From an uncultured Pirellulaceae bacterium (lineage in GTDB: Bacteria > Planctomycetota > Planctomycetia > Pirellulales > Pirellulaceae), in NCBI GenBank assembly GCA_937928555.1, contig CALFWR010000002.1, forward strand, positions 62,001 to 126,000: DNA of 64,000 nt. Reading direction: 5' to 3'. Under the pieces are notes generated by a model that saw only the letters and a list, made by a program, of their open reading frames with translations, was not told the DNA's origin and made no database searches. A program made the position numbers and the translations under genes. Of the stretch, positions 15,800 to 29,451 are shown piece by piece (the first letter of the stretch is position 1; each line of letters begins with the position of its first letter).

Positions 15800-17008
15800 C
15801 TACCTTCCGTCCCACGTTTCGGGATAGATGACCAGTTCGATCCGGCGGTTGGGGCTTACCCCGCCAACGACTCCTTGACGATGACGTGGCCGATTGCTGG
15901 CCATTCCCATGGTAAACATTTGTCGGTTGGGGATTCCCAGACGAACAAGTTCTTCAAAGACTGCCAGCGATTGGGTGGCGGTCAGTTGGTGATCGGTGGT
16001 TCCGGGTGGGTTCAGCGGTGTGCCATCCCAATGGGCTTCGATGCCGATGATTTGGCGGGGGAACGATTCGCGAATCGTCGATGCGACGTTCTGTAACAGT
16101 GGCAACTGGCCCGGTTGAACACGGAAGCTTCCGGATGTGAACAAGCGGTCGGTTGGGAATTCGATGCGGATCACGTCTCCATCCATTCGCGTGTCACCGC
16201 CGGGAATCCGGATCGCGTTGAGCTTTTGCATCAGCCCGTTGTTGGCCCGGATTGTTGCTGACCCGCCGGGAACGTTACCGCCTGAAAACCCTGCGTTTTG
16301 AAAGGGTCCCGGGTTGTCGAACCGCGAGCCCGAACCGCGCTGCCCCGGGCCGCTGGAAGCGGGCTGAAATGGCCGGTTCTGCAAGGAATCAAGTCTGCTT
16401 TGACGTTGAGCCAGCAGGCTGTCCTGTTCCTGAATTCTCTGCGTGAGTTGCTGGACCTGTTGCTGCAAACCGACAAACTGTTGCTGGTTGATACGGTCCT
16501 GGCTGCCGGAACGGTTTATCCGCCCGGTCATGTCAGAAAGCTGTTGCTTCAAGGTTTGGTTGTACTGATTGGCCAACTCCAGTTTTTGTTGCAACGTGGC
16601 GACTTCGGTGTTGAGCAGTTCGTTGTCCGCGTCGTAAGCTCCGATGCGTTGACTGAGTCGTGAGTGCTCCTGATTGAATTGGAATGGATTCGACCCTGCG
16701 GCAGAACCACTAGGGATCTGTCCGCCGCCAAATTGCCCAGCGATTTGCCCAAGGCCGGAATTTGCCGCCTGTGCGACCTGTTGATTGCGAGCGAAAGGGT
16801 TACTGAACGATGAACCGCCAAAGCCACCTCCGCCAAAGAGCGAAGAACCCGAACTGCTCACAGGCCGGTTGCCAAATCCGAACAGGCCTCCGGTTCGGTT
16901 CTGCGGTTGGCATCCGGAAATGAGAATCACGCAGCAAGCCAAAACGGCAACAGCTCGAACTGAGGCGAAGCGGCAGGCTGAAGATTGGTGGGTTGATTGG
17001 AGTGTCAT
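15800..17008 (-). CDS. OmpA-family outer-membrane lipoprotein with coiled coil
   Basis: 402 residues. The leader (AVAVLACCVILISGC) ends in a lipobox with C33, so the protein should be lipid-anchored. Then come a Gly/Ser/Phe-rich low-complexity stretch (40-110), a coiled coil with many Gln residues (about 125-210), a second Gly/Pro linker, and a C-terminal OmpA-like domain (about 275-402) with IEFPTDRLFTSGSFRV, IIGIEAHWDGTPLN and SPNRRIELVIYP, which corresponds to the peptidoglycan-binding fold. It is likely to tie the outer membrane to the cell wall, or to act as a scaffold. The start at 17006-17008 has only a weak ribosome site. Confidence 0.87.
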   Translation of the reverse strand: MTLQSTHQSSACRFASVRAVAVLACCVILISGCQPQNRTGGLFGFGNRPVSSSGSSLFGGGGFGGSSFSNPFARNQQVAQAANSGLGQIAGQFGGGQIPSGSAAGSNPFQFNQEHSRLSQRIGAYDADNELLNTEVATLQQKLELANQYNQTLKQQLSDMTGRINRSGSQDRINQQQFVGLQQQVQQLTQRIQEQDSLLAQRQSRLDSLQNRPFQPASSGPGQRGSGSRFDNPGPFQNAGFSGGNVPGGSATIRANNGLMQKLNAIRIPGGDTRMDGDVIRIEFPTDRLFTSGSFRVQPGQLPLLQNVASTIRESFPRQIIGIEAHWDGTPLNPPGTTDHQLTATQSLAVFEELVRLGIPNRQMFTMGMASNRPRHRQGVVGGVSPNRRIELVIYPETWDGR

Positions 17009-18711: not shown

Positions 18712-21700
18712 CTAGAAAAGATCGTCAAGCGTTGTCCAATCGATGTCGCTTCGAGAGCTGATTCGTTTGACAAGTTCGATAGCGTCGGGCCGCTGTGACA
18801 TCAGGCGAAAGGCAACCGATGCAAAGGAAATGTCTTCGGCCTCAAAACAGACGACCAAGCTTCCTGTAGACCCCTGCATTGTGAGTGATTCAAAGTTCAG
18901 GTTTGCCCCAATGACTCGGTTGGTTTCAGGGTTTTCCGAGAAGGCCGGAAATGCGAACAGTAGTCGCATTTCGCCACCGCAGTCCGCGACTCGGGGCCGA
19001 GCCTCAATGACCCGACAATTGAGCCATTGGACAAGCTGCTCCGGTGCGACGCCGTTTTCCTCGATGATTTCGTCGATCGAGATTGTCTCGTACATTTTCC
19101 GAAGCACGATATGGGCTGCTTCGCGGATTTCGGCTGGCAGTTGATATCGCCAATAAGACATATCCGAGAGTGCGTTGGAAAACGTGCCGGTCGTTTCGAT
19201 GATGGAACCGAAAACCTGAAGTTCGGATTTTCTGGCCAGTTGTTTGATGGATGCTTCAATTTTATTGATCAACAGTTTTTGGAGATCAAAGGCATCATTT
19301 TCGACGCCGAAGTCAAACTCGAGTGCAACCGTCTTACAGAATTCTTCTCGAACGCATTCGAGATTGGTCTTGTAGTTGTCCAACTGGGAGCGAACTGGCT
19401 CAAGTCCGTTATTGACGACCCTGAAGAACTCGCTGGTATACCGTTGAACAAATTCTTGTTCGCGAAGTTCAAACAGTTGCCCGCAGAGCGATTCGACGGT
19501 GTCCAGTCCGACTTCATCAAATCCATTTTTTGAGCGGTGGATCGCGGACACAACATTGGAAATTTCGTCAAAGAGTTCCTCGCATTTGTTCCTGGCCGAG
19601 TCAATTGGTTCCTGTAGTTGCTCACCAATTTTGTCGATAACGTGACGAATCAGGGACAGGCAATTGCCTCGTGAATCTACCAGGCCTGCGACTTTTCGAG
19701 CCAACAGGTACTCTCCCGAAACCGGATGGGTCGAGATCCACTGGTCCAGGTCAGCGGCGAGTTCGGGTTCCACATGCGAAGCATCCCGTCGATGTCGGGG
19801 TGCCCCGAAATAGCCGTCCAAATGTTCCGTGATCGCCGACTCAATTTCATCGTTTGCTTCGACAACACCGATGAGTTTCTGAATTTGATCGCCTTTTTGC
19901 GATTTGGTCTTTTTGAGCGTTTCTTCTGAGACAAGTTTTGAAATGGAATCCGGATCCAGATCAAACTCGCTGACCAATTCGTCAAACTTTTGTTCGATTG
20001 TGGCCGGTTCCGGATTGCTGTTGATCCAGCGGGTGACAAGGTTTTGTCCCAGTCGATCGGTAATTCCATCGTGAAGGCTTGGATCGCCAATTCCGCTGAC
20101 TGAAAGTCCGAGTGAACGCAATCCAAAGTGCTCACGCTGGAACTCATTCGCGCGACAGGCTTCAAAGTACGGTCGGCATCTGGAGGCTGTGGAGAGGGAG
20201 ACATATTCGGCGATCTGCCCAAGTCGCTTTTCGTGCTCGGATTGGCTCAGGTCGTCGCCCAGTTCGACATAGTAGGTGTTGGCGAAGGGTTGTTCTTCTT
20301 CGAATTCGGGAATCCCCAGTGTTTCGTCACCGGGGTAGCCGTACTCGTTGAAGTGACGCATTTCGGTCATGAAGGCAAATGTATTGGCGGTTGCCAGGCC
20401 GGGGTCGCGTTGCCGCTGGTAAGACGAATGCAACAGGATGGCGGTCACATTGTCATCGCGCAACCCTTTTTCGGCCAGCAGAAGTTTGATGGTGTAGGCC
20501 AGGTCAAGGGCCATGCCGCTGCCGATGCCGCCGCTGATTGATGTGATTAGGTAGATTTGTGGCGCGGTGACTTCTCCGGGAAGCATTTCCAGTGACTCGC
20601 AGGTGTCGGCGAGATTTTCCGCTTTGGCGAGTTCGTCGATGGCACGTTCGAGCGTATCGCAGATTGTGTTGAAATGGTCGGCAAATACGAGTCGTCCCAA
20701 TGGCCGGAGACCTTCGGTTTGGAGTGTGCGCGGGACGTTGTAAATCCATCTTCGGCTAAGCCAGTTAAGATGCACTTCGGCGTTGCTGCGGTAGTCTTCG
20801 GGTTTGCGAAGTGGAACGTGGACTGATTCGAGGGTGGAAACAGGATTGGTTCGCAGCATTTCCAAGCGACCAAGTGCTTTTCGGTCCGAGTCGATGTAGA
20901 CCGACTGAATGGCTGGAATGCAGTCGGGATTTCCGACCCGGGAAACGAGTTTACATTTTGTTTTTTGTCCAATCCGGTTGGCGGTATCGCCAACGGTTAC
21001 GATTAGCGCCGGGTTGAACGAGTTTCTATTGGGGTCAAAATCGGGAGGGGAGGCGATCTGGATTTGCTCTGCCTGAATTGGCAACATATTGTTGCCCATC
21101 ATTTCGGTGGCGTCGCGTGAAACGGATGAGTTCGAACTTTGGAAAACAAGTGTTTCCGAGGAAGAATTCTCCTCGTGGCGGTTCGTCGCTGTCTGTCGGC
21201 GAAGCGTCTTTTTGATCGATCGCTTTTGCTTTTTCAGATCATCGACAAACGCGACGCAGTTCGGGTGGCGCGCGTTGGGATCTTTGGTCAGCGCACGTGC
21301 AATCGCGGCCTGATCGGACTTGGGAAGAGCCCTCAGGTTGGGCTTGCCGTGCATGTGCTGAGCGGCTAACTGGGCAGGGGTAGAACCTGAAAAAGGTCGC
21401 ACTCCGGTAAGCATCTCTGCGTACACAATCGCGAGGGAGTACTGGTCGCTACTGTTGGCGGGTCTTCCGTCGAAGAGTTCTGGTGGCGCGTAGGCTGGAG
21501 TCATGCCCTGCATCAGGGATTGAGTCGCGACCTGGAGGTCTTTCATTAACCCGAAGTCTGCGACTTTCACGTGTCCGCTGACGATCAGCAGGTTCTCGGG
21601 TTTGATGTCGAGGTGCTGGAGTGACTTTTCGGCGGCGAGAAAGTCCAAAGCGTCGGCGGCGTTGGAAATGTACTTCAGCAGTTCTTCCCGCGGAATGCCG

Positions 21701-22026
21701 GATTCGCCCTTGGCGGCGTACTCATTGAACAGGTCCGCCATGCTCGCGTCAGCAAGTTCTGTTACGACGACGAGTTGGTTTTCAAAAATCTCGATTCGTT
21801 CCAGCGAAAGCAGAAACGGATGTCGCAGTGATTTGACGCGATCGAGGGCTTTGAGTTCTGACAGCGCACGCTTTTCGTCGTGATATCCGTAGACGATCTT
21901 GATGGCTTTTTTCAAGCCACCGGGCGCCTCGGCAGACCAGACCTCTCCGAAACCGCCCGAGCCGATTCGCTTCTCGAGACGATATCCGAGGATTTCGCTG
22001 GTCGGTTCTATTGGATTGATTGCCAC
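18712..22026 (-). CDS. Protein kinase fused to a tubulin-like (Tubulin_2-type) domain
   Basis: 1104 residues from GTG 22024-22026. The kinase domain spans about 14-270: glycine loop GSGGFGEVW (22-30), AIK lysine K43, HLDIKPENLL (138-147, HLD instead of HRD), DFG (157-159), APPEL (180-184). A Ser/Asn linker (280-335) leads to a second region starting LIVTVGDTANRIGQ (341-354). There IYLITSISGGIGSGMALDLA (491-510) carries the G-rich GGxGSGM loop of tubulin/FtsZ-like GTPases as seen in the bacterial Tubulin_2 family, followed by AILLHSSYQ and an F.TEMRHF segment. The C-terminal 380 residues are mostly helical with no motif I know. No membrane helix is visible. It lies 23 bases downstream of the AAA+ gene, so they share an operon. 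GTP binding and polymerisation are inferred, not shown. Confidence 0.83.
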   Translation of the reverse strand: MAINPIEPTSEILGYRLEKRIGSGGFGEVWSAEAPGGLKKAIKIVYGYHDEKRALSELKALDRVKSLRHPFLLSLERIEIFENQLVVVTELADASMADLFNEYAAKGESGIPREELLKYISNAADALDFLAAEKSLQHLDIKPENLLIVSGHVKVADFGLMKDLQVATQSLMQGMTPAYAPPELFDGRPANSSDQYSLAIVYAEMLTGVRPFSGSTPAQLAAQHMHGKPNLRALPKSDQAAIARALTKDPNARHPNCVAFVDDLKKQKRSIKKTLRRQTATNRHEENSSSETLVFQSSNSSVSRDATEMMGNNMLPIQAEQIQIASPPDFDPNRNSFNPALIVTVGDTANRIGQKTKCKLVSRVGNPDCIPAIQSVYIDSDRKALGRLEMLRTNPVSTLESVHVPLRKPEDYRSNAEVHLNWLSRRWIYNVPRTLQTEGLRPLGRLVFADHFNTICDTLERAIDELAKAENLADTCESLEMLPGEVTAPQIYLITSISGGIGSGMALDLAYTIKLLLAEKGLRDDNVTAILLHSSYQRQRDPGLATANTFAFMTEMRHFNEYGYPGDETLGIPEFEEEQPFANTYYVELGDDLSQSEHEKRLGQIAEYVSLSTASRCRPYFEACRANEFQREHFGLRSLGLSVSGIGDPSLHDGITDRLGQNLVTRWINSNPEPATIEQKFDELVSEFDLDPDSISKLVSEETLKKTKSQKGDQIQKLIGVVEANDEIESAITEHLDGYFGAPRHRRDASHVEPELAADLDQWISTHPVSGEYLLARKVAGLVDSRGNCLSLIRHVIDKIGEQLQEPIDSARNKCEELFDEISNVVSAIHRSKNGFDEVGLDTVESLCGQLFELREQEFVQRYTSEFFRVVNNGLEPVRSQLDNYKTNLECVREEFCKTVALEFDFGVENDAFDLQKLLINKIEASIKQLARKSELQVFGSIIETTGTFSNALSDMSYWRYQLPAEIREAAHIVLRKMYETISIDEIIEENGVAPEQLVQWLNCRVIEARPRVADCGGEMRLLFAFPAFSENPETNRVIGANLNFESLTMQGSTGSLVVCFEAEDISFASVAFRLMSQRPDAIELVKRISSRSDIDWTTLDDLF

Positions 22027-22049
22027 GATTAAACCTTGTCCTTGTTGAG

Positions 22050-23414
22050 TTAGCTAATTCCCCGGGCCAGCGTGCGGGGAGCATTCGGGTCAATGACCTC
22101 TGTAAAGTAGCTCCCGACCACGCGGTCGAAGTATTCATTGCGGATTTCCAACGGTAAATCGTTGTACACGCAATAGTTTCGGATCTGTCCAAGCAGATCT
22201 CGTGGATGACAACGTCGTAGTCGTCGATTGGTTTTGACGTAATGTTCCTGAATCAGATACTCAACGACTGCCTCGTCGTAGTAGCACTTGACTTTTTCGC
22301 AGTAGATCTGGAACAGAAGATGGAATTCCCGGTGCGATGGGTCGCCGATTTCGATTTTGTAAGGGATCCGCCGCATGAAGGCTTCGTCGACCAGTTGCGA
22401 TGGTTCGAGGTTGGTTGAAAAGATAATCAGCTGCTCAAAGGGCACCTGAATTTTCTTGCCGGAGGCCAGTTGGAGAAAGTCGATACGGCTTTCTAGGGGC
22501 ACGATCCAGCGGTTCAACAACTCCTGTGGCTCAATCCGCTGACGCCCAAAGTCATCGATCAACAGGCAGCCACAGTTGCTTTTCATCTGCAGTGAAGCCT
22601 CACTGACGTTGGAGACGGGGTCGTGACGAATCTCCAACGAATCCATTGTCATCTCGCCACCGACAACCACGGTGGGTCGTTGAATCTTGACCCAACGGCG
22701 ATCAAATGAAGACGCGCTCAAATACGAGTCACTGTCGTCCTGGGCGCGATGATGGTACGCCGAATCAAACAGTTTGATGATCATTCCGTCTTCGTAGATG
22801 GCATGGGGAACCCAAATTTCGTGGCCGAAACACTGGGTAATTCGCTGAGCGATGGTGGATTTTCCGTTGCCCGGTTCGCCGTACAGGAACAGACCGGCCC
22901 CGGAGTTAATCGCCGGTCCGAGACTTTCAAATAGCTCTTCATTGATCGTGATGTCGCCGAAAGCATCCCGCAGTTGGGTGCGTTTTGGCGATTCGGCGCG
23001 AATCGTTTGAGCTTCGGCGCTGAGGACATAGTCCATCAGTGGAACTGGAGCCGGTCCGCCGTAGGAGCAAGCCTGGGTCATCAGGGTAGCGCGATCACGC
23101 CCGCTTTCTGTCAATGAGTAGTTATAGTCATTCAGGGGGGCCGATCCGTTGTGAACCAGATACTGCCGAGCCCGGAGTGTCTGGAACAAGTCTTCCAGTA
23201 CGGTAAACGGAAGGCACAAATCGTTCGCCAGCTGGCGACCGCTGCTGATGCCGACGTTGGACAGGCGTTTGAGAATCAGAGATTCGATCAACGATACAGG
23301 CAGGCCAATGTCGGACAAAGACGACGGCTCCGACGGTCGAAACGACTCGTCAGCCATAATCGTTGCCAACAGGCTGTTGCTTAATGAAGCGCTGCTATCG
23401 ATTGTGTTGGACAT
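22050..23414 (-). CDS. AAA+ ATPase with N-terminal winged-helix-like region
   Basis: 454 residues from ATG 23412-23414 (MSNTIDSSASLSNSLL); a longer frame to 23576 opens with unlikely sequence. Residues 35-115 (LPVSLIESLILKRLSNVGISSGRQLANDL...LTESGRDRA) read as a winged-helix module. The ATPase core has Walker A GEPGNGKST (179-187), Walker B CLLIDDFGRQ (283-292), sensor 1 IIFSTNL (330-336) and an arginine pair RR (348-349) before IPYKIEIG. The C-terminal helices include HPRDLLGQIRNYC, an AAA+ lid feature. Such ATPases remodel or load partner proteins or nucleic acid; the partner here is probably the kinase/tubulin-like protein encoded 23 bases downstream. That link rests on gene order only. 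Confidence 0.82.
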   Translation of the reverse strand: MSNTIDSSASLSNSLLATIMADESFRPSEPSSLSDIGLPVSLIESLILKRLSNVGISSGRQLANDLCLPFTVLEDLFQTLRARQYLVHNGSAPLNDYNYSLTESGRDRATLMTQACSYGGPAPVPLMDYVLSAEAQTIRAESPKRTQLRDAFGDITINEELFESLGPAINSGAGLFLYGEPGNGKSTIAQRITQCFGHEIWVPHAIYEDGMIIKLFDSAYHHRAQDDSDSYLSASSFDRRWVKIQRPTVVVGGEMTMDSLEIRHDPVSNVSEASLQMKSNCGCLLIDDFGRQRIEPQELLNRWIVPLESRIDFLQLASGKKIQVPFEQLIIFSTNLEPSQLVDEAFMRRIPYKIEIGDPSHREFHLLFQIYCEKVKCYYDEAVVEYLIQEHYVKTNRRLRRCHPRDLLGQIRNYCVYNDLPLEIRNEYFDRVVGSYFTEVIDPNAPRTLARGIS

Positions 23415-23739
23415 GTGAATACCAGTGTGGGAGTTTTGCACAAGCGTGCGTGCGAAACAGTAGGTCACCGTTAACGACACCCAACCAGCAAGTCGCGGAA
23501 TTTCTTGCATCGGTTCGTTGACGACATGACACCGATTCTTGATGAACAACCGATTCAGCCGCTGATACCCGAACAACCCGAATCGTCACCGTCGAAGCGG
23601 CGATTGCCAACAGAAAAAGTCTGCCAACTTCCGGAAATCTCACCACTGAACCAAAGCCGCAAGCTAAATCTTCCTGGCAGTAGATGCGTTCAGCAACTGC
23701 GAACGAACAAAAATCAGAGGGCCGTTGGCCCGGTTAACT
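23415..23739. other. Divergent intergenic region between AAA+ and FHA-EAL genes
   Basis: About 325 bases separate the start codons of the two divergent genes and must hold both promoters. I see no convincing -35/-10 pair. A small palindrome GGGCCGTTGGCCC lies just before the FHA-EAL start. Open frames crossing the region in both directions look non-coding. Confidence 0.5.
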
Positions 23740-24954
23740 ATGGCAACTTACGAAGAACAAAAATCCGCCCACGGTCGACGAGCTCCGTCAAAGTGGTTCC
23801 TATCCGGTCAGATATCGGAAAGTGAGCCGTTGCGCAAGTTCACGATGCACGCGTTTCCGTTCACCATCGGGCGAAAGTCAGATGCTTCACTGTGTCTGCC
23901 GACCGGATGTATCTCCAAGGAGCATGCGGAACTGGACCTGGGCGAAGACGGCACACTGGTTATCCGTGACCTTGGAAGTACCAACGGAAGCTATGTCAAT
24001 GGCGAGCCGGTCGTGGGAGAGCGTGTTGTTTTTGAGGATGATATTATCCAGTTCGCGACCATCGTATTGCGAGTCGGTTCTGATCGTGTTCAGTCCGAAG
24101 GCAATACAATCCAGGAAGACGTCTGCGACCACGCCCTAGCGATCATCCAGTTCGAAAAATTGATCAGTGATGGCGGCCTGTATCCGCACTTTCAGCCGAT
24201 TGTCAAACTTTCGGATCAGTCGCGGCTCGGCTACGAAGTCCTTGGACGCAGTCGGCTGTTCGGCCTTCAGTCACCTCACGAGATGTTTCTGGCGGCTTCT
24301 CAATTGAACATGGAAGCCCAACTGAGCGAAGCATTTCGCCACCGCGGTATCGAAATTGGGACCGACTTTGGCAGCGAGATGAACCTGTTCGTCAACACGC
24401 ACCCCAAAGAACTGGACCGCCCCGAGTTTTATGCGTCACTGCACGCTTTGCGTGAGATGGCTCCCGAGCAATCGGTTACTCTGGAGATTCACGAAGGTGC
24501 GTCCACCAATGTGGCGATGATGCGAGAGCTTTGTTCAGTCCTTGCGGATCTGAACATCAAGTTGGCCTTTGACGATTTCGGTGTTGGCCGGGCAAGACTG
24601 GTGGAACTGGGCGAAGTCCGTCCTGACTTTCTCAAGTTCGACATGAAGCTGACCAAGAACATTGAAAATGCGCCTCCCCGACGTCAGGAGTTGGTGGCCT
24701 TGTTTGCCAATATGGTGAACAACCTTGGAATTCAGACACTCGCAGAAGGTGTCGAGACCCGAGAATGCCATCAGATTCTGGTCGAGATGGGATTCCAGTT
24801 GGGGCAGGGCTTTTATTATGGCCGACCCTCGCCATTGTCGAAATTTCAGTCGGAGCGAGGTGACCGCGCTGGTTCGCAAACAGACACCGACTGTCATGAC
24901 GGCAATGATTCGCGAACGGATACCAATCCACGAACGGATGCCGAAACCAAATAA
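23740..24954 (+). CDS. FHA domain-EAL domain protein (c-di-GMP phosphodiesterase-like)
   Basis: 404 residues from ATG 23740. The FHA domain is at about 32-112: FTIGRKSDASLCLP, SKEHAEL, and RDLGSTNGSYVNG, which carry the Arg, Ser, His and Asn residues that bind phosphothreonine. The EAL domain is at about 140-370: FQPIV, EVLGR (166-170, Glu retained in the EAL position), FVNTHPKEL (N219), LEIHE (E249/E252), AFDDFGVGRA (D278, D279), FLKFDMKL (K299), LAEGVET (E337) and GFQLGQGFYYGRP. All metal and catalytic positions I can check are present, so cyclic-di-GMP hydrolysis is plausible. A phosphothreonine reader on an EAL enzyme, next to a kinase operon on the opposite strand, suggests kinase control. 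The gene ends next to the rpmG terminator. Confidence 0.9.
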   Translation: MATYEEQKSAHGRRAPSKWFLSGQISESEPLRKFTMHAFPFTIGRKSDASLCLPTGCISKEHAELDLGEDGTLVIRDLGSTNGSYVNGEPVVGERVVFEDDIIQFATIVLRVGSDRVQSEGNTIQEDVCDHALAIIQFEKLISDGGLYPHFQPIVKLSDQSRLGYEVLGRSRLFGLQSPHEMFLAASQLNMEAQLSEAFRHRGIEIGTDFGSEMNLFVNTHPKELDRPEFYASLHALREMAPEQSVTLEIHEGASTNVAMMRELCSVLADLNIKLAFDDFGVGRARLVELGEVRPDFLKFDMKLTKNIENAPPRRQELVALFANMVNNLGIQTLAEGVETRECHQILVEMGFQLGQGFYYGRPSPLSKFQSERGDRAGSQTDTDCHDGNDSRTDTNPRTDAETK

Positions 24955-25357: not shown

Positions 25358-27811
25358 CTATCGGCATTCAAGCAGCAATTTCTCAAGCAGGTTCCGATAT
25401 TTTGACTTTTCCCAGCCCGGCGGGACGGCTTTGATGAATCGCAGGAGCTTCTGAGCCTCCTGTTTTCGGCCCAAAGCCACCAGCATCCGGGCGCTCTGGT
25501 ATTTGGCCTCGAACCACGATTCGGTTCCGTTGCGGGTTCGGCTGGCGATCCATCGCCACTGCCCGAGAGCTTTTTCAGGGTCGCCAGAGGGTTCGCCCAG
25601 GGATCGGGCCATCGCTCTGCGCAGTGCGAGACTGTTGGGAGTTTGCGAAATCAGTAGCTGGAAAAGTTCTGCCGCGTCCCCGGTTCGACCCGTCGCGGCG
25701 AGGGCGATGGCTTGGGTTTGGCGAAGAAAGGCCTGGTCGGCTGCGGAGTCGAAGCCTTCTTTTTCCAATGCCGTTTTTGCCAACTCGAGTTGTAGTTGGG
25801 CCAGTTTCTCATTGGCGGGCACCTGCTGCATCCAGGCGACTGCCCGTCTCAGCTCGGTCATTTTCAAGCCGCCATCGAGACTTCGGCTGACCGCAATCGC
25901 AGGCGAGGTGTTGGAGTTGCCGGCAAGTCTTTGGCAAGCGTTCAGAATCAGGGCTCCGAAAGGAAAAGCGTTTTTCTGGCTTTCCTGTTCATCGATTCCC
26001 CAGCGGGGCTGCGTCAAGCGTTTGCCGGTCACGGGGTCGCCACAGGAAAAGGCAACCATTGCCATCTCGCAGGCAAGGTTTGCTTTGGGAAGCCCCGATG
26101 CATTTTTCTGAACGCGCTCCAATCGCGAAATCAGGTTTCGCGCAGTGCCGCGATCGGAACGTTGCTCGACCATTCTGTCCAGGCAAAAGCGAATCTGGCC
26201 AAGGTTCTGCCCGAACGCAGTGGAGGCCGGATCGATTTTGAGCAAGGCATCGAGCGCCTGTTCGATCTTGCTTTCACGGACCAGTTGGCCCGCCAGCCAG
26301 CCGCTGGCTTGACCGGAAGTCGACGAACCGGGCCACGTTTGTGTGTGCTCCATCAGGCGCGCGGTAAAGTCCGGACTCATTGGCTGCAACTGGGTCAACG
26401 TCCAGCATCCGCGCAGATGCACCGAAGGCGCAATTTTCGAGTCCGGTACGCGTTTCGAGTAGTCCAGATACATTGTGGCTGCGGCCTGAAAGTCCTTTGC
26501 CTGTTCGTGGGCTTTGCCACCTTGCACGATGGCCGCCAGGGCCGCGTCGGGATTGCCGTTGTCGATTCTTTCCCGGGCGACCTGTTCGAAAGCTTTTGCG
26601 GCGTCGGCGAAGTTGTTTTTGGCCAAAGCTTCATTTGCGATCCGCAGTAAAATTCGTTCGCCTTTGATGACCGGCGCCGAATCATTTGCTGACGCCGGTA
26701 GCTGGCCCAGCAGCATCAGGTCGGCTTGCCGCGACCAGTACGGCCCATGTCGGGCGATACGACCGGCCACTTCTGCGGCCCCTTCGGAGCGACCGGCGAC
26801 CAGTAGCAATTTCAAAAACGCAATCTCCGTTTCGGCACGATCGAGTGTTTTGGCGTTGACGCCCGCGGCCGTTTCCATGATCGACTCGCGCTCGCCTTTG
26901 GCGATGGCTAACTCGAAGGCCTGCTCAAGCATCAGCATGTCGGTTGTCTTGGGGCGTTTCTTGCTGTGAAGGCTTTGCAGGACTTCGGCTGCGCGACCAA
27001 ATTCTTCCATCAGTCTCAGCCCGGCAAGCTGGTCGATTTTTGTCTTCCACCAAAGTTCCCGCGTGTCCGAAACCCGCTTGCGTACTTCTTCCAGACGTTT
27101 GAGAGAACTGTTGAGCGAATCAATTTTGTCCAGGTTGTTGCCCTGTTGCTGATACAGAGACGCCAGCACAAGATCGGAAACGGCCAAGCGGTATTGGATG
27201 TTGGCATCAAGCGATTTCAGTTGATCATCGTCAAGGCCCGGTTGCGGACGACGACCCTGAAGCTGCTGCGAAACCTCCCAGCCATTTTTCTCAAGGACCG
27301 ATTTGGCGTCTTTGAGAAAGCGGATGCCGCGGGCAGCTTTGCCCGAACGACTGGCCTGTTTGGCAAAAGTCATCTGGGCCAATGCCTGCTGCATCCAGAC
27401 CAACGGAAGCCGGGCGTTGGATTTGTGCTGGACCTCGAATCGTTCGACCAGTTTGCTTATCGATTCAACCTGCTGCGGCTGTTGGTCGGGCTCAAGCGAA
27501 CCCCGTGTTGTGCGGTTGCGAATTTGCTCTACGGCGATCAGGGCATGGTCTTTTTGGGTTAGCTCGGGACGCAGCAGCAACTCCTCGCAGTGGCTTTCTG
27601 CAAAGTCGGTCAACCCGCGCTTGCGCAAACCAATGACAACGTTGCGCTCGCGTTGATCGAAAACGTCGGGGCTGCGCGGATCCTGCAGCACAGTCCCGGA
27701 TCCCGCGCTGGCCCAGAGGCTTAGGCAGAAGCATACGTAGACGCTTAGATTAAAGCTTAAATTAAAGCCCATGCAGCGGCTGAGGCTGACAACACGCACC
27801 ATCGAAGTCAT
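25358..27811 (-). CDS. Secreted or surface TPR-rich protein of the ExbBD operon
   Basis: 817 residues. The start at 27811 overlaps the ExbD stop by four bases (ATGA), supporting coupling, and leads into a long hydrophobic leader (MGFNLSFNLSVYVCFCLSLWASA from the internal Met 14). The remainder is helical and rich in Ala, Leu, Gln and Glu in roughly 34-residue periods (for example ALAKNNFADAAKAFEQVARE, DAAELFQLLISQTPNSLALR), as in TPR solenoids. It has no catalytic motif. TPR proteins encoded with ExbB/ExbD pairs often connect the membrane motor to envelope or outer-membrane processes; that is inference. It is the last gene of the operon. Confidence 0.82.
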   Translation of the reverse strand: MTSMVRVVSLSRCMGFNLSFNLSVYVCFCLSLWASAGSGTVLQDPRSPDVFDQRERNVVIGLRKRGLTDFAESHCEELLLRPELTQKDHALIAVEQIRNRTTRGSLEPDQQPQQVESISKLVERFEVQHKSNARLPLVWMQQALAQMTFAKQASRSGKAARGIRFLKDAKSVLEKNGWEVSQQLQGRRPQPGLDDDQLKSLDANIQYRLAVSDLVLASLYQQQGNNLDKIDSLNSSLKRLEEVRKRVSDTRELWWKTKIDQLAGLRLMEEFGRAAEVLQSLHSKKRPKTTDMLMLEQAFELAIAKGERESIMETAAGVNAKTLDRAETEIAFLKLLLVAGRSEGAAEVAGRIARHGPYWSRQADLMLLGQLPASANDSAPVIKGERILLRIANEALAKNNFADAAKAFEQVARERIDNGNPDAALAAIVQGGKAHEQAKDFQAAATMYLDYSKRVPDSKIAPSVHLRGCWTLTQLQPMSPDFTARLMEHTQTWPGSSTSGQASGWLAGQLVRESKIEQALDALLKIDPASTAFGQNLGQIRFCLDRMVEQRSDRGTARNLISRLERVQKNASGLPKANLACEMAMVAFSCGDPVTGKRLTQPRWGIDEQESQKNAFPFGALILNACQRLAGNSNTSPAIAVSRSLDGGLKMTELRRAVAWMQQVPANEKLAQLQLELAKTALEKEGFDSAADQAFLRQTQAIALAATGRTGDAAELFQLLISQTPNSLALRRAMARSLGEPSGDPEKALGQWRWIASRTRNGTESWFEAKYQSARMLVALGRKQEAQKLLRFIKAVPPGWEKSKYRNLLEKLLLECR

Positions 27812-28272
27812 CTTTGGTTGTCTCCGGAGATTGCGTAGGAAATCTTCGAATAGCCGCTGGATTTGGCGGCGTCAAATGCGGCCACAACATACTCCAGCGG
27901 GACGCTTTTTTCTGGCCACAGGATCACCGGAACATCGGTGCTGATTGCTCCGATCGCGGCTAATTGTCTGCTGACCTGTTCGATGTCGGCCATGGCTTGT
28001 TCCTGCAAGATCCACGTGGCAGCGGCACCGTCGAATTCGATGCGAATGACCAGATTGTCCAGGTCCGACTGTTCGGGCGGCGGATCGATGTCGATGTTTT
28101 GCTGGCCCGATTCGGTGACCAGTTGGCTGGGCAGTACCTGTTCGACGATCTGAAAGCTGGCGGTCCAGACGAAAAACACCAACAGGAGAAACACGACATC
28201 GATCATCGGCGTCATGGCCGAATCGATATCGACGTCGGATCCGGATTGAACAAGCTGGCTGGGTCGACGCAT
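27808..28272 (-). CDS. ExbD/TolR biopolymer transport protein (second copy)
   Basis: 154 residues from ATG 28270-28272, one base after the stop of the first ExbD; the longer frame upstream overlaps that gene. Residues 18-42 (SAMTPMIDVVFLLLVFFVWTASF) are the ExbD/TolR signature: a TPMID motif, where the Asp carries protons, followed by a single membrane helix. A periplasmic domain follows (about 45-154) with the usual strands. With ExbB it should form a proton-driven inner-membrane motor. Two different ExbD proteins in one operon suggest a heteromeric complex. Confidence 0.9.
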   Translation of the reverse strand: MRRPSQLVQSGSDVDIDSAMTPMIDVVFLLLVFFVWTASFQIVEQVLPSQLVTESGQQNIDIDPPPEQSDLDNLVIRIEFDGAAATWILQEQAMADIEQVSRQLAAIGAISTDVPVILWPEKSVPLEYVVAAFDAAKSSGYSKISYAISGDNQR

Positions 28273-28273
28273 G

Positions 28274-28696
28274 CTATCGCTCGCTTTGGTAGACCGCGAA
28301 ACCAACATCCCAAAGCCCGGCTTTGGTGCAGGCCAGCATGATTGGTTCGACTTTGGACCAGGGAACTGTTTTGCTGGAGCGAATGCGGACCTGAAGGTCT
28401 TTGCCTTTGTCCTGGCAAACGGTTTGCAGCATCGGTTCAAGTTGCTTCGAGAGCAGCAGACGACCGGAGACTTTCATCGTCCCGTCATCAAGAATATTGA
28501 TCGTCACGCGCGGCGTGGGGCTGGATTCGTCTTTGTCGCTTGCCGCGGCCACCGGCAGATCAAGATCCTGCTGGGCTTCCTGGCGAGCCAAATGGCTGCT
28601 GACGAGAAAGAAAATGATCAGCAGAAACACGACGTCGATCATCGGCGTCATGTTGAACCCGAACTTTCGCGATGGCTTGTAGCGTGGGACGCGCAT
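28274..28696 (-). CDS. ExbD/TolR biopolymer transport protein (first copy)
   Basis: 140 residues. KFGFNMTPMIDVVFLLIIFFLVSSHL (about 11-36) is the single-helix ExbD motif with the proton-carrying Asp. The C-terminal periplasmic part (about 40-140) contains DKDESSPTPRVTINILDDGTMKVSGRL and a VQVR-like strand as in ExbD. Its start codon overlaps the ExbB stop by one base, indicating coupling. It differs clearly from the second ExbD encoded downstream, so it is not a recent duplicate. Confidence 0.92.
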   Translation of the reverse strand: MRVPRYKPSRKFGFNMTPMIDVVFLLIIFFLVSSHLARQEAQQDLDLPVAAASDKDESSPTPRVTINILDDGTMKVSGRLLLSKQLEPMLQTVCQDKGKDLQVRIRSSKTVPWSKVEPIMLACTKAGLWDVGFAVYQSER

Positions 28697-29451
28697 TACT
28701 TGGCCCTTTTGGCTTTTCGCCGTAGCGGGCTGAACACATGCTGCACCACGTAAGAGGCTTCGGCGACCATCTGGTCAATCCGGTTGCGAAAAACCGCGAA
28801 CGCCCCAATCGACGGGATCGCCACCAACAGCCCACCAACCGTTGTCACGAGTGCCTGGTAAATGCCTTCGGCAAGTTCCGGGGCGCTGGCGGTTCCTTGG
28901 GTCGATGCGACGCCCTGAAAGGCCATGATCATCCCGATCACCGTGCCCAGCAGCCCGATCATCGGTGCCAGGTTTCCGATCACCGACAGGTATTCGATTT
29001 TGCGAAACAGCCGCGCGGACTGTTCGGCCAAAGCATCTTCGACGGATTTCTCGACGCTGTTCCAGCCGAATTCGAGTTCGGAGATACCGTGCATCAAAAC
29101 AAACGACAGAAAACTGGGATTGGCTTTGCAGGCTTCCTGAGCCTGAGCCACGTTGCCTTCGAGCAGATGCCCGCGGACGGTGTCGCCAAGCCCCTCAGGC
29201 ATTAGGTCTTTGCGGCGGATCGTCAACAGGTGGTCGATGACCAGGTACGCCGAAATGACCGACAGGACCATCAGCAAAATGATGATCATGATTCCGATGA
29301 TGCCGCCGGAAAAAATGATTTCGAAGAAGCTTTTGCTACCCGCCGGTTCGGCCTCCTGCAGTATCGGTGTCAAGAGTGCCAACAGGCTATTCGTTTGCCC
29401 AGGTGGAATCACCAAACTTCTCCTTGAGTTCCTGCAGCAACCTTGCTGCAT
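28696..29451 (-). CDS. ExbB/TolQ-type MotA/TolQ/ExbB proton channel
   Basis: 251 residues if read from ATG 29449-29451, but this overlaps the upstream gene by 65 bases; a TTG at 29380-29382 just past that gene's stop would give 228 residues and is an equal candidate. Three membrane helices are seen: GGIIGIMIIILLMVLSVISAYLV, LSVIGNLAPMIGLLGTVIGMIMAF and ALVTTVGGLLVAIPSIGAFAVF. The second and third match the highly conserved ExbB/TolQ helices, with LGTVIGMI. With the two ExbD proteins it forms the motor. It probably powers an outer-membrane or periplasmic process rather than TonB, since no TonB is in the window. Confidence 0.92.
   Translation of the reverse strand: MQQGCCRNSRRSLVIPPGQTNSLLALLTPILQEAEPAGSKSFFEIIFSGGIIGIMIIILLMVLSVISAYLVIDHLLTIRRKDLMPEGLGDTVRGHLLEGNVAQAQEACKANPSFLSFVLMHGISELEFGWNSVEKSVEDALAEQSARLFRKIEYLSVIGNLAPMIGLLGTVIGMIMAFQGVASTQGTASAPELAEGIYQALVTTVGGLLVAIPSIGAFAVFRNRIDQMVAEASYVVQHVFSPLRRKAKRAK

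Follow-up and report, generated by a model that had tools for sequence, protein, structure and literature searches.

The closest described relatives of the locus analysed here are found in the FtsZl1 family, for which the main text of Makarova & Koonin (2010, PMC2875224) describes four members from planctomycetes that carry a kinase at the N terminus. The partners named there are vWA, GTPase, kinase and OmpA, with an operon being usual but not obligatory. The kinase-tubulin fusion was reported again in a 2023 study on tubulin evolution. In a 2024 study, no domain was associated more often with solely cytoplasmic planctomycete kinases than the tubulin-like domain. The fusion protein and its family were described in 2010 in a lineage lacking FtsZ, and they still have no assigned function.

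Tubulin-family proteins also occur in the GTPase-centred conflict systems of Kaur et al. (2020, PMC7159879), which resemble the present locus in combining such a protein with NTPase and signalling genes. These systems use GAP1-N2 GTPases, vWA or HSP70, none of which is conserved beside KT here. Well-known pairs of a kinase with an FHA protein are PknB with GarA/OdhI and PpkA with Fha1. As in these pairs, a Ser/Thr kinase adjoins a phosphothreonine-reading FHA protein at our locus; here, however, EAL is the fusion partner of the FHA domain, and a tubulin-like domain that of the kinase.

The locus lies in the genome of an uncultured Pirellulaceae bacterium and was read within a stretch of 64,000 nucleotides, referred to as the window. 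Its kinase-tubulin fusion protein (KT) shares with the planctomycete FtsZl1/Tubulin_2 branch, as presented in the main text of PMC2875224, both the lineage and the order of kinase, FtsZ-like and C-terminal parts, the last being helical in FtsZl1 and predicted as mostly helical in KT. AAA+ and FHA-EAL proteins are absent from the partners given in that main text, whereas here a dedicated AAA+ ATPase and an FHA-EAL protein are conserved. A preceding sequence-only reading of the window had known of no description of this four-part arrangement. This holds for the trio, of which no description was found in open-access full text (subscription papers and preprints lay outside the search), but not for the kinase-tubulin fusion, which was published in 2010. 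We conclude that the three-gene module is real, conserved and apparently undescribed, while its core fusion protein is known but uncharacterised.

Results

Organization of the locus and its host genome

The KT gene (18712-22026, minus strand) encodes 1104 aa. Its GTG start codon is preceded by a ribosome-binding-like stretch, AAGGACAAGG, and the AAA+ ATPase gene (22050-23414, minus strand, 454 aa) ends 23 bases upstream. Divergent from the latter, the FHA-EAL gene (23725-24954, plus strand) encodes 409 aa from a TTG codon, with an in-frame ATG five codons in, at 23740. The divergent intergenic region (23415-23724, about 310-325 bp) is predicted as a likely shared promoter region for AAA+ and FHA-EAL. 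Coordinates and Pfam matches thus agree with the sequence-only reading, which had placed AAA+ 23 bases upstream of KT and FHA-EAL in divergent orientation. None of the three window proteins contains a convincing transmembrane stretch; the highest 19-residue hydropathy in KT is 1.28.

About 1.7 kb beyond the KT gene, an OmpA-domain protein with a coiled-coil stretch is encoded (15800-17008, minus strand), which is not a conserved neighbour. On the other side, several short genes in a row (27808-29451, minus strand) resemble TolQ/TolR or ExbB/ExbD-type membrane motors in a reading of their sequences.

The source genome comprises 4.87 Mb in 168 contigs and is 91% complete, and the closest named relatives of its KT are from uncultured Pirellulaceae. 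No recognisable FtsZ was found in it, as is usual for the phylum. It carries eight GGDEF genes, and the host therefore probably makes c-di-GMP.

A tubulin-superfamily domain fused to a Ser/Thr kinase

KT consists of a Ser/Thr kinase domain (residues 15-264; Pkinase, 110.8 bits), a variable linker (about 266-338), a Tubulin_2/FtsZl1 domain (residues 341-633; PF13809, 94-96 bits, cut-off 27) and a C-terminal region that is predicted as mostly helical. In the kinase, K43, D140, N145 and D157 (D157-F-G) are invariant across 37 KT homologues, and judged from these alignments the catalytic Lys, the HxD Asp/Asn and the DFG Asp of a Hanks-type kinase are intact. Tubulin_2 was matched by 33 of 33 homologous domains, nine of which additionally matched the classical Tubulin family.

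AlphaFold models of KT, calculated from a three-sequence alignment, have low confidence, with mean pLDDT values of 41.5 and 50.4. All 50 PDB matches listed for the low-confidence model are nevertheless to tubulin, FtsZ, TubZ or CetZ (Foldseek E-values down to 7e-5). The best structural match of this low-confidence model is CetZ1 (Z 15.8 over 183 residues, rmsd 3.5), and CetZ, tubulin and FtsZ are all matched at Z about 14-16. FtsZl1 proteins have an extended coiled-coil followed by a helical C-terminal domain. The KT model is mostly helical after the tubulin domain, but its pLDDT falls below 50 after about residue 610, so that no fold is assigned to this part. Together, the profile match (Tubulin_2, 94 bits) and the matches of the low-confidence model to CetZ, tubulin and FtsZ bear out the earlier proposal of a tubulin-type fold and indicate that KT carries a true tubulin-superfamily domain fused to a Ser/Thr kinase.

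The T4-like glycine loop (GGxGSG) is intact in the window KT as GGIGSGM (residues 499-505; 20512-20532, minus strand, from the translation), and its first glycine, G499, is invariant in 37 sequences. The T1 nucleotide loop, in contrast, is eroded to TVGDTANRIG where relatives have GVGGxG, and in a solo KT family it is the T4 loop that is eroded. GTP binding and polymerisation are thus possibly not essential, and with the T1 loop eroded in the window KT, polymerisation of this protein may be doubtful. Both erosions fit an alternative in which the tubulin-like domain would be a non-polymerising scaffold, either sensing GTP/GDP or binding proteins, with KT acting as a cytoplasmic signalling kinase, AAA+ as its activator or chaperone and FHA-EAL as effector. 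The main text of Makarova & Koonin (2010, PMC2875224) is in line with this, since the T6-H7 elements were not confidently identified in FtsZl1 and filament formation, if it occurs, would require a novel mechanism. However, the T4 loop and invariant aspartates are retained by most module KT copies, and nucleotide-bound tubulin folds are still matched by the KT model (Z about 15). We therefore regard a pure scaffold as unlikely, though it deserves serious weight.

In the linker, the candidate phosphosite motif T[EQVLT][VIT][FLVI][DEQSN] was over-represented among the 37 aligned linkers, yet occurred in 0 of 18 held-out linkers and was rejected, as was the looser motif T.V[FLVI], which was contaminated by the start of a tubulin strand. 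No conserved docking site in the kinase-tubulin linker survived this held-out test (37 aligned, 18 held-out linkers).

The AAA+ ATPase is a dedicated paralogue

The AAA+ protein shows a Walker A motif (GEPGNGKST), a Walker B-like motif (LLIDDFG), a sensor-1-like FSTN and an arginine-finger-like FMRRIPYKI. In a reading of 32 homologous sequences, G179, P181-K185, T187, D287, D288, N335, R348 and R349 are invariant. By inspection, the N-terminal region resembles a winged helix. No Pfam AAA family scored above its curated cut-off for the window protein (best 18.1 bits), while the family profile matched the AAA+ PDB chains of spastin, Vps4 and Cdc48 at E about 6e-7. Spastin severs microtubules. 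Spastin, Vps4, Cdc48 and Msp1, the best PDB profile matches, have the AAA+ core motifs in common with the module protein; this similarity is weak (E about 1e-6 over 40-70 residues) and generic to AAA+, so that a severing analogy is tempting but would have to be drawn with caution.

Relatives of the AAA+ protein occur in 260 of the 297 genomes of the class. In a phylogenetic tree, the module AAA+ is separated from 12 unlinked paralogues by a branch with 100/100 support, and every match of at least 550 bits came from a genome that also has a KT gene. At five loci with FHA-EAL but without a linked AAA+, a module-like copy is present elsewhere in the same genomes, at 587-679 bits compared to about 500 bits for the unlinked type. 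The module AAA+ is thus a dedicated paralogue. The second AAA+ paralogue (L088-L099) is about 50% identical to the module AAA+ and occurs in most of the class; its surroundings at 12 loci contained no conserved neighbours and hence gave no functional clue.

FHA-EAL proteins also occur outside the module

Pfam assigned an FHA domain (residues 47-110, 56.8 bits) and an EAL domain (residues 144-368, 141.6 bits) to the third protein of the module. All phosphothreonine-binding FHA residues (R50, S64, H67, N87) and all eight metal-binding or catalytic EAL residues (E171, N224, E254, D283, D284, K304, E341, Q361) are present in the window protein. The top NCBIfam match of its EAL domain is to the RimA-type phosphodiesterases (NF052265, 83 bits), with which it shares the eight catalytic residues. 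It remains far below the cut-off of 430 bits and differs by its FHA fusion.

A role of FHA-EAL as a dedicated partner of the module was rejected, as linked and unlinked copies are mixed in the tree. Directly beside the unlinked FHA-EAL gene, a different large Ser/Thr kinase is encoded at 5 of 20 loci (L120, L121, L122, L129 and L136), which suggests that pairing of a kinase with FHA-EAL is general in planctomycetes.

The three genes stay linked while their surroundings change

Relatives of KT were found in 151 of the 297 genomes searched, all of one class, with sequence identities down to about 30%. For reading, 61 loci were chosen among the better KT matches, and the partners were counted by profiles of the three proteins. 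The full trio is present at 51 of these, AAA+ at 52 and FHA-EAL at 56. One locus (L117) probably lacks FHA-EAL because its contig starts about 600 bases ahead of the AAA+ match. By tblastn positions alone, the AAA+ and KT genes lie no more than 10 kb apart at 55 of 63 loci outside the families f106, f107 and f110. Of the 151 genomes with KT relatives, about 88 belong to these three families. The four loci read there, all from f107 (L083, L084, L085 and L087), have neither the AAA+ nor the FHA-EAL partner, so that the module characterises part of the class rather than all of it. By its sequence, f107 KT is possibly a non-nucleotide-binding branch. An eroded T4 loop, e.g. GGGSGF, is seen in aligned f107 KT.

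The gene order varies. The divergent arrangement of the window (FHA-EAL<AAA>KT>) was found at 16 loci, FHA-EAL>AAA>KT> at 13 and at one more with a broken AAA+ frame, AAA>FHA-EAL>KT> at 12 and AAA>KT>FHA-EAL> at seven; rarer forms also exist. Clustering of open reading frames around the first 43 loci gave no other flanking gene family at more than 8 of the 43, and vWA, GTPase or OmpA families were not recurrent around KT in this set. At a few loci this clustering undercounted the partners owing to ORF-calling, and for them it is superseded by the profile count.

The neighbourhood of the trio is conserved far beyond chance, and the AAA+ and FHA partners accompany KT in many families of the class. 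That the trio has persisted through changes of order, within flanks that are scrambled, strongly argues for a joint function of KT, AAA+ and FHA-EAL. Conserved linkage across genomes was, besides the tubulin fold, one of the two checks that the sequence-only reading had named, and the trio came through it at 51 of 61 loci in several orders. As the loci all stem from one class and are hence not independent, common ancestry with slow shuffling might produce such clusters without any joint function. Yet identities reach down to about 30%, the flanks are scrambled and the trio is kept together in at least four main orders or orientations, which makes this explanation very improbable.

The flanks also bear on a possible role of the module in phage defence or conflict, comparable to the MoxR-vWA and GTPase-tubulin proposals, with the kinase as sensor or effector. 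Tubulin domains are known from GTPase-centred conflict systems, and the KT kinase domain matches the defence kinases MAD6 and PD-T4-6. These matches, however, are limited to the kinase fold, as any such kinase would give, and the flanks of the 43 loci contain no recurrent nuclease, toxin or other effector. Unlike patchy defence islands, the genes are widespread; a genome has one or two copies, and these group by lineage. We therefore consider a defence function improbable.

Two types of the module differ in the EAL site

Each of the 56 module copies retains the phosphopeptide-binding FHA residues, but only 39 also keep the eight EAL residues intact; in the other 17 the EAL site is lost. FHA docking thus appears as the fixed part of the module and c-di-GMP catalysis as the variable one. 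The earlier proposal of a link to c-di-GMP turnover would accordingly apply to the EAL-intact type, to which the window belongs, but not to the 17 copies in which the EAL site, never the FHA site, was lost.

The 17 degenerate-EAL copies are exactly those at loci ordered AAA>FHA-EAL>KT> or FHA-EAL>KT>. Upstream of most of them, part or all of a REC-GGDEF-CBS protein is encoded (for example L057:5219-6652, L103:10331-11836, L069:5554-7458 and L104:6198-7889), whose GGDEF motif is degenerate in the inspected copies, e.g. GDDCF, LEEDCF or SADQL. Such a protein with a degenerate GGDEF lies upstream of FHA-EAL only at module copies with a degenerate EAL site. The degenerate-EAL module occurs in the genomes G340, G352, G367 and G494, and at least G352 and G367 also contain an intact module. 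The KT tree requires only three changes among the labels intact, degenerate and solo; the types therefore follow lineage, and the 17 degenerate copies are not independent events. The two types offer a natural comparison between modules with an active-looking and an inactive-looking EAL domain.

A possible mechanism

Tentatively, and with close to even weight, we propose that the three genes form one functional unit. It would consist of a tubulin-like assembly under the control of phosphorylation, an AAA+ remodeller belonging to this assembly and a c-di-GMP module docked through phosphothreonines. The kinase of KT would phosphorylate threonines on KT itself or on a partner, and the FHA domain would bind these phosphothreonines and thereby bring EAL to the tubulin-like assembly, which AAA+ would remodel or pull apart. 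For the EAL-intact type, including the window, the output would be local hydrolysis of c-di-GMP, by which the state of the assembly might be linked to cell-cycle or surface-life decisions. Where the EAL site is degenerate, EAL and GGDEF-like domains may instead serve as ligand-binding or scaffold parts. The conserved linkage, the split of the module AAA+ from unlinked paralogues, the invariant FHA residues and the GGDEF genes of the host were counted in favour of this proposal, as were the kinases beside unlinked FHA-EAL genes, which fit such a kinase-FHA pairing; the eroded T1 and T4 loops, the failed linker motif, the non-exclusive FHA-EAL and the partnerless f107 KT were counted against it.

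A more specific version, which we regard as doubtful, is that these FtsZ-less bacteria possess a tubulin-like cytoskeletal element that would be switched by its fused kinase, disassembled by a dedicated AAA+ and coupled via phosphothreonine docking to local c-di-GMP breakdown. If true, a cytoskeleton would be directly and physically coupled to second-messenger signalling. The conserved partners provide three handles on KT, namely the ligand of the FHA domain, the substrate of AAA+ and the effect of c-di-GMP, and make its function directly testable in cultivated planctomycetes.

Tubulin_2 proteins without a KT-type kinase domain were also observed in other planctomycete lineages (L004-L009, L013 and L017), and in one genome (G081) two of them are encoded in tandem (L006/L017).
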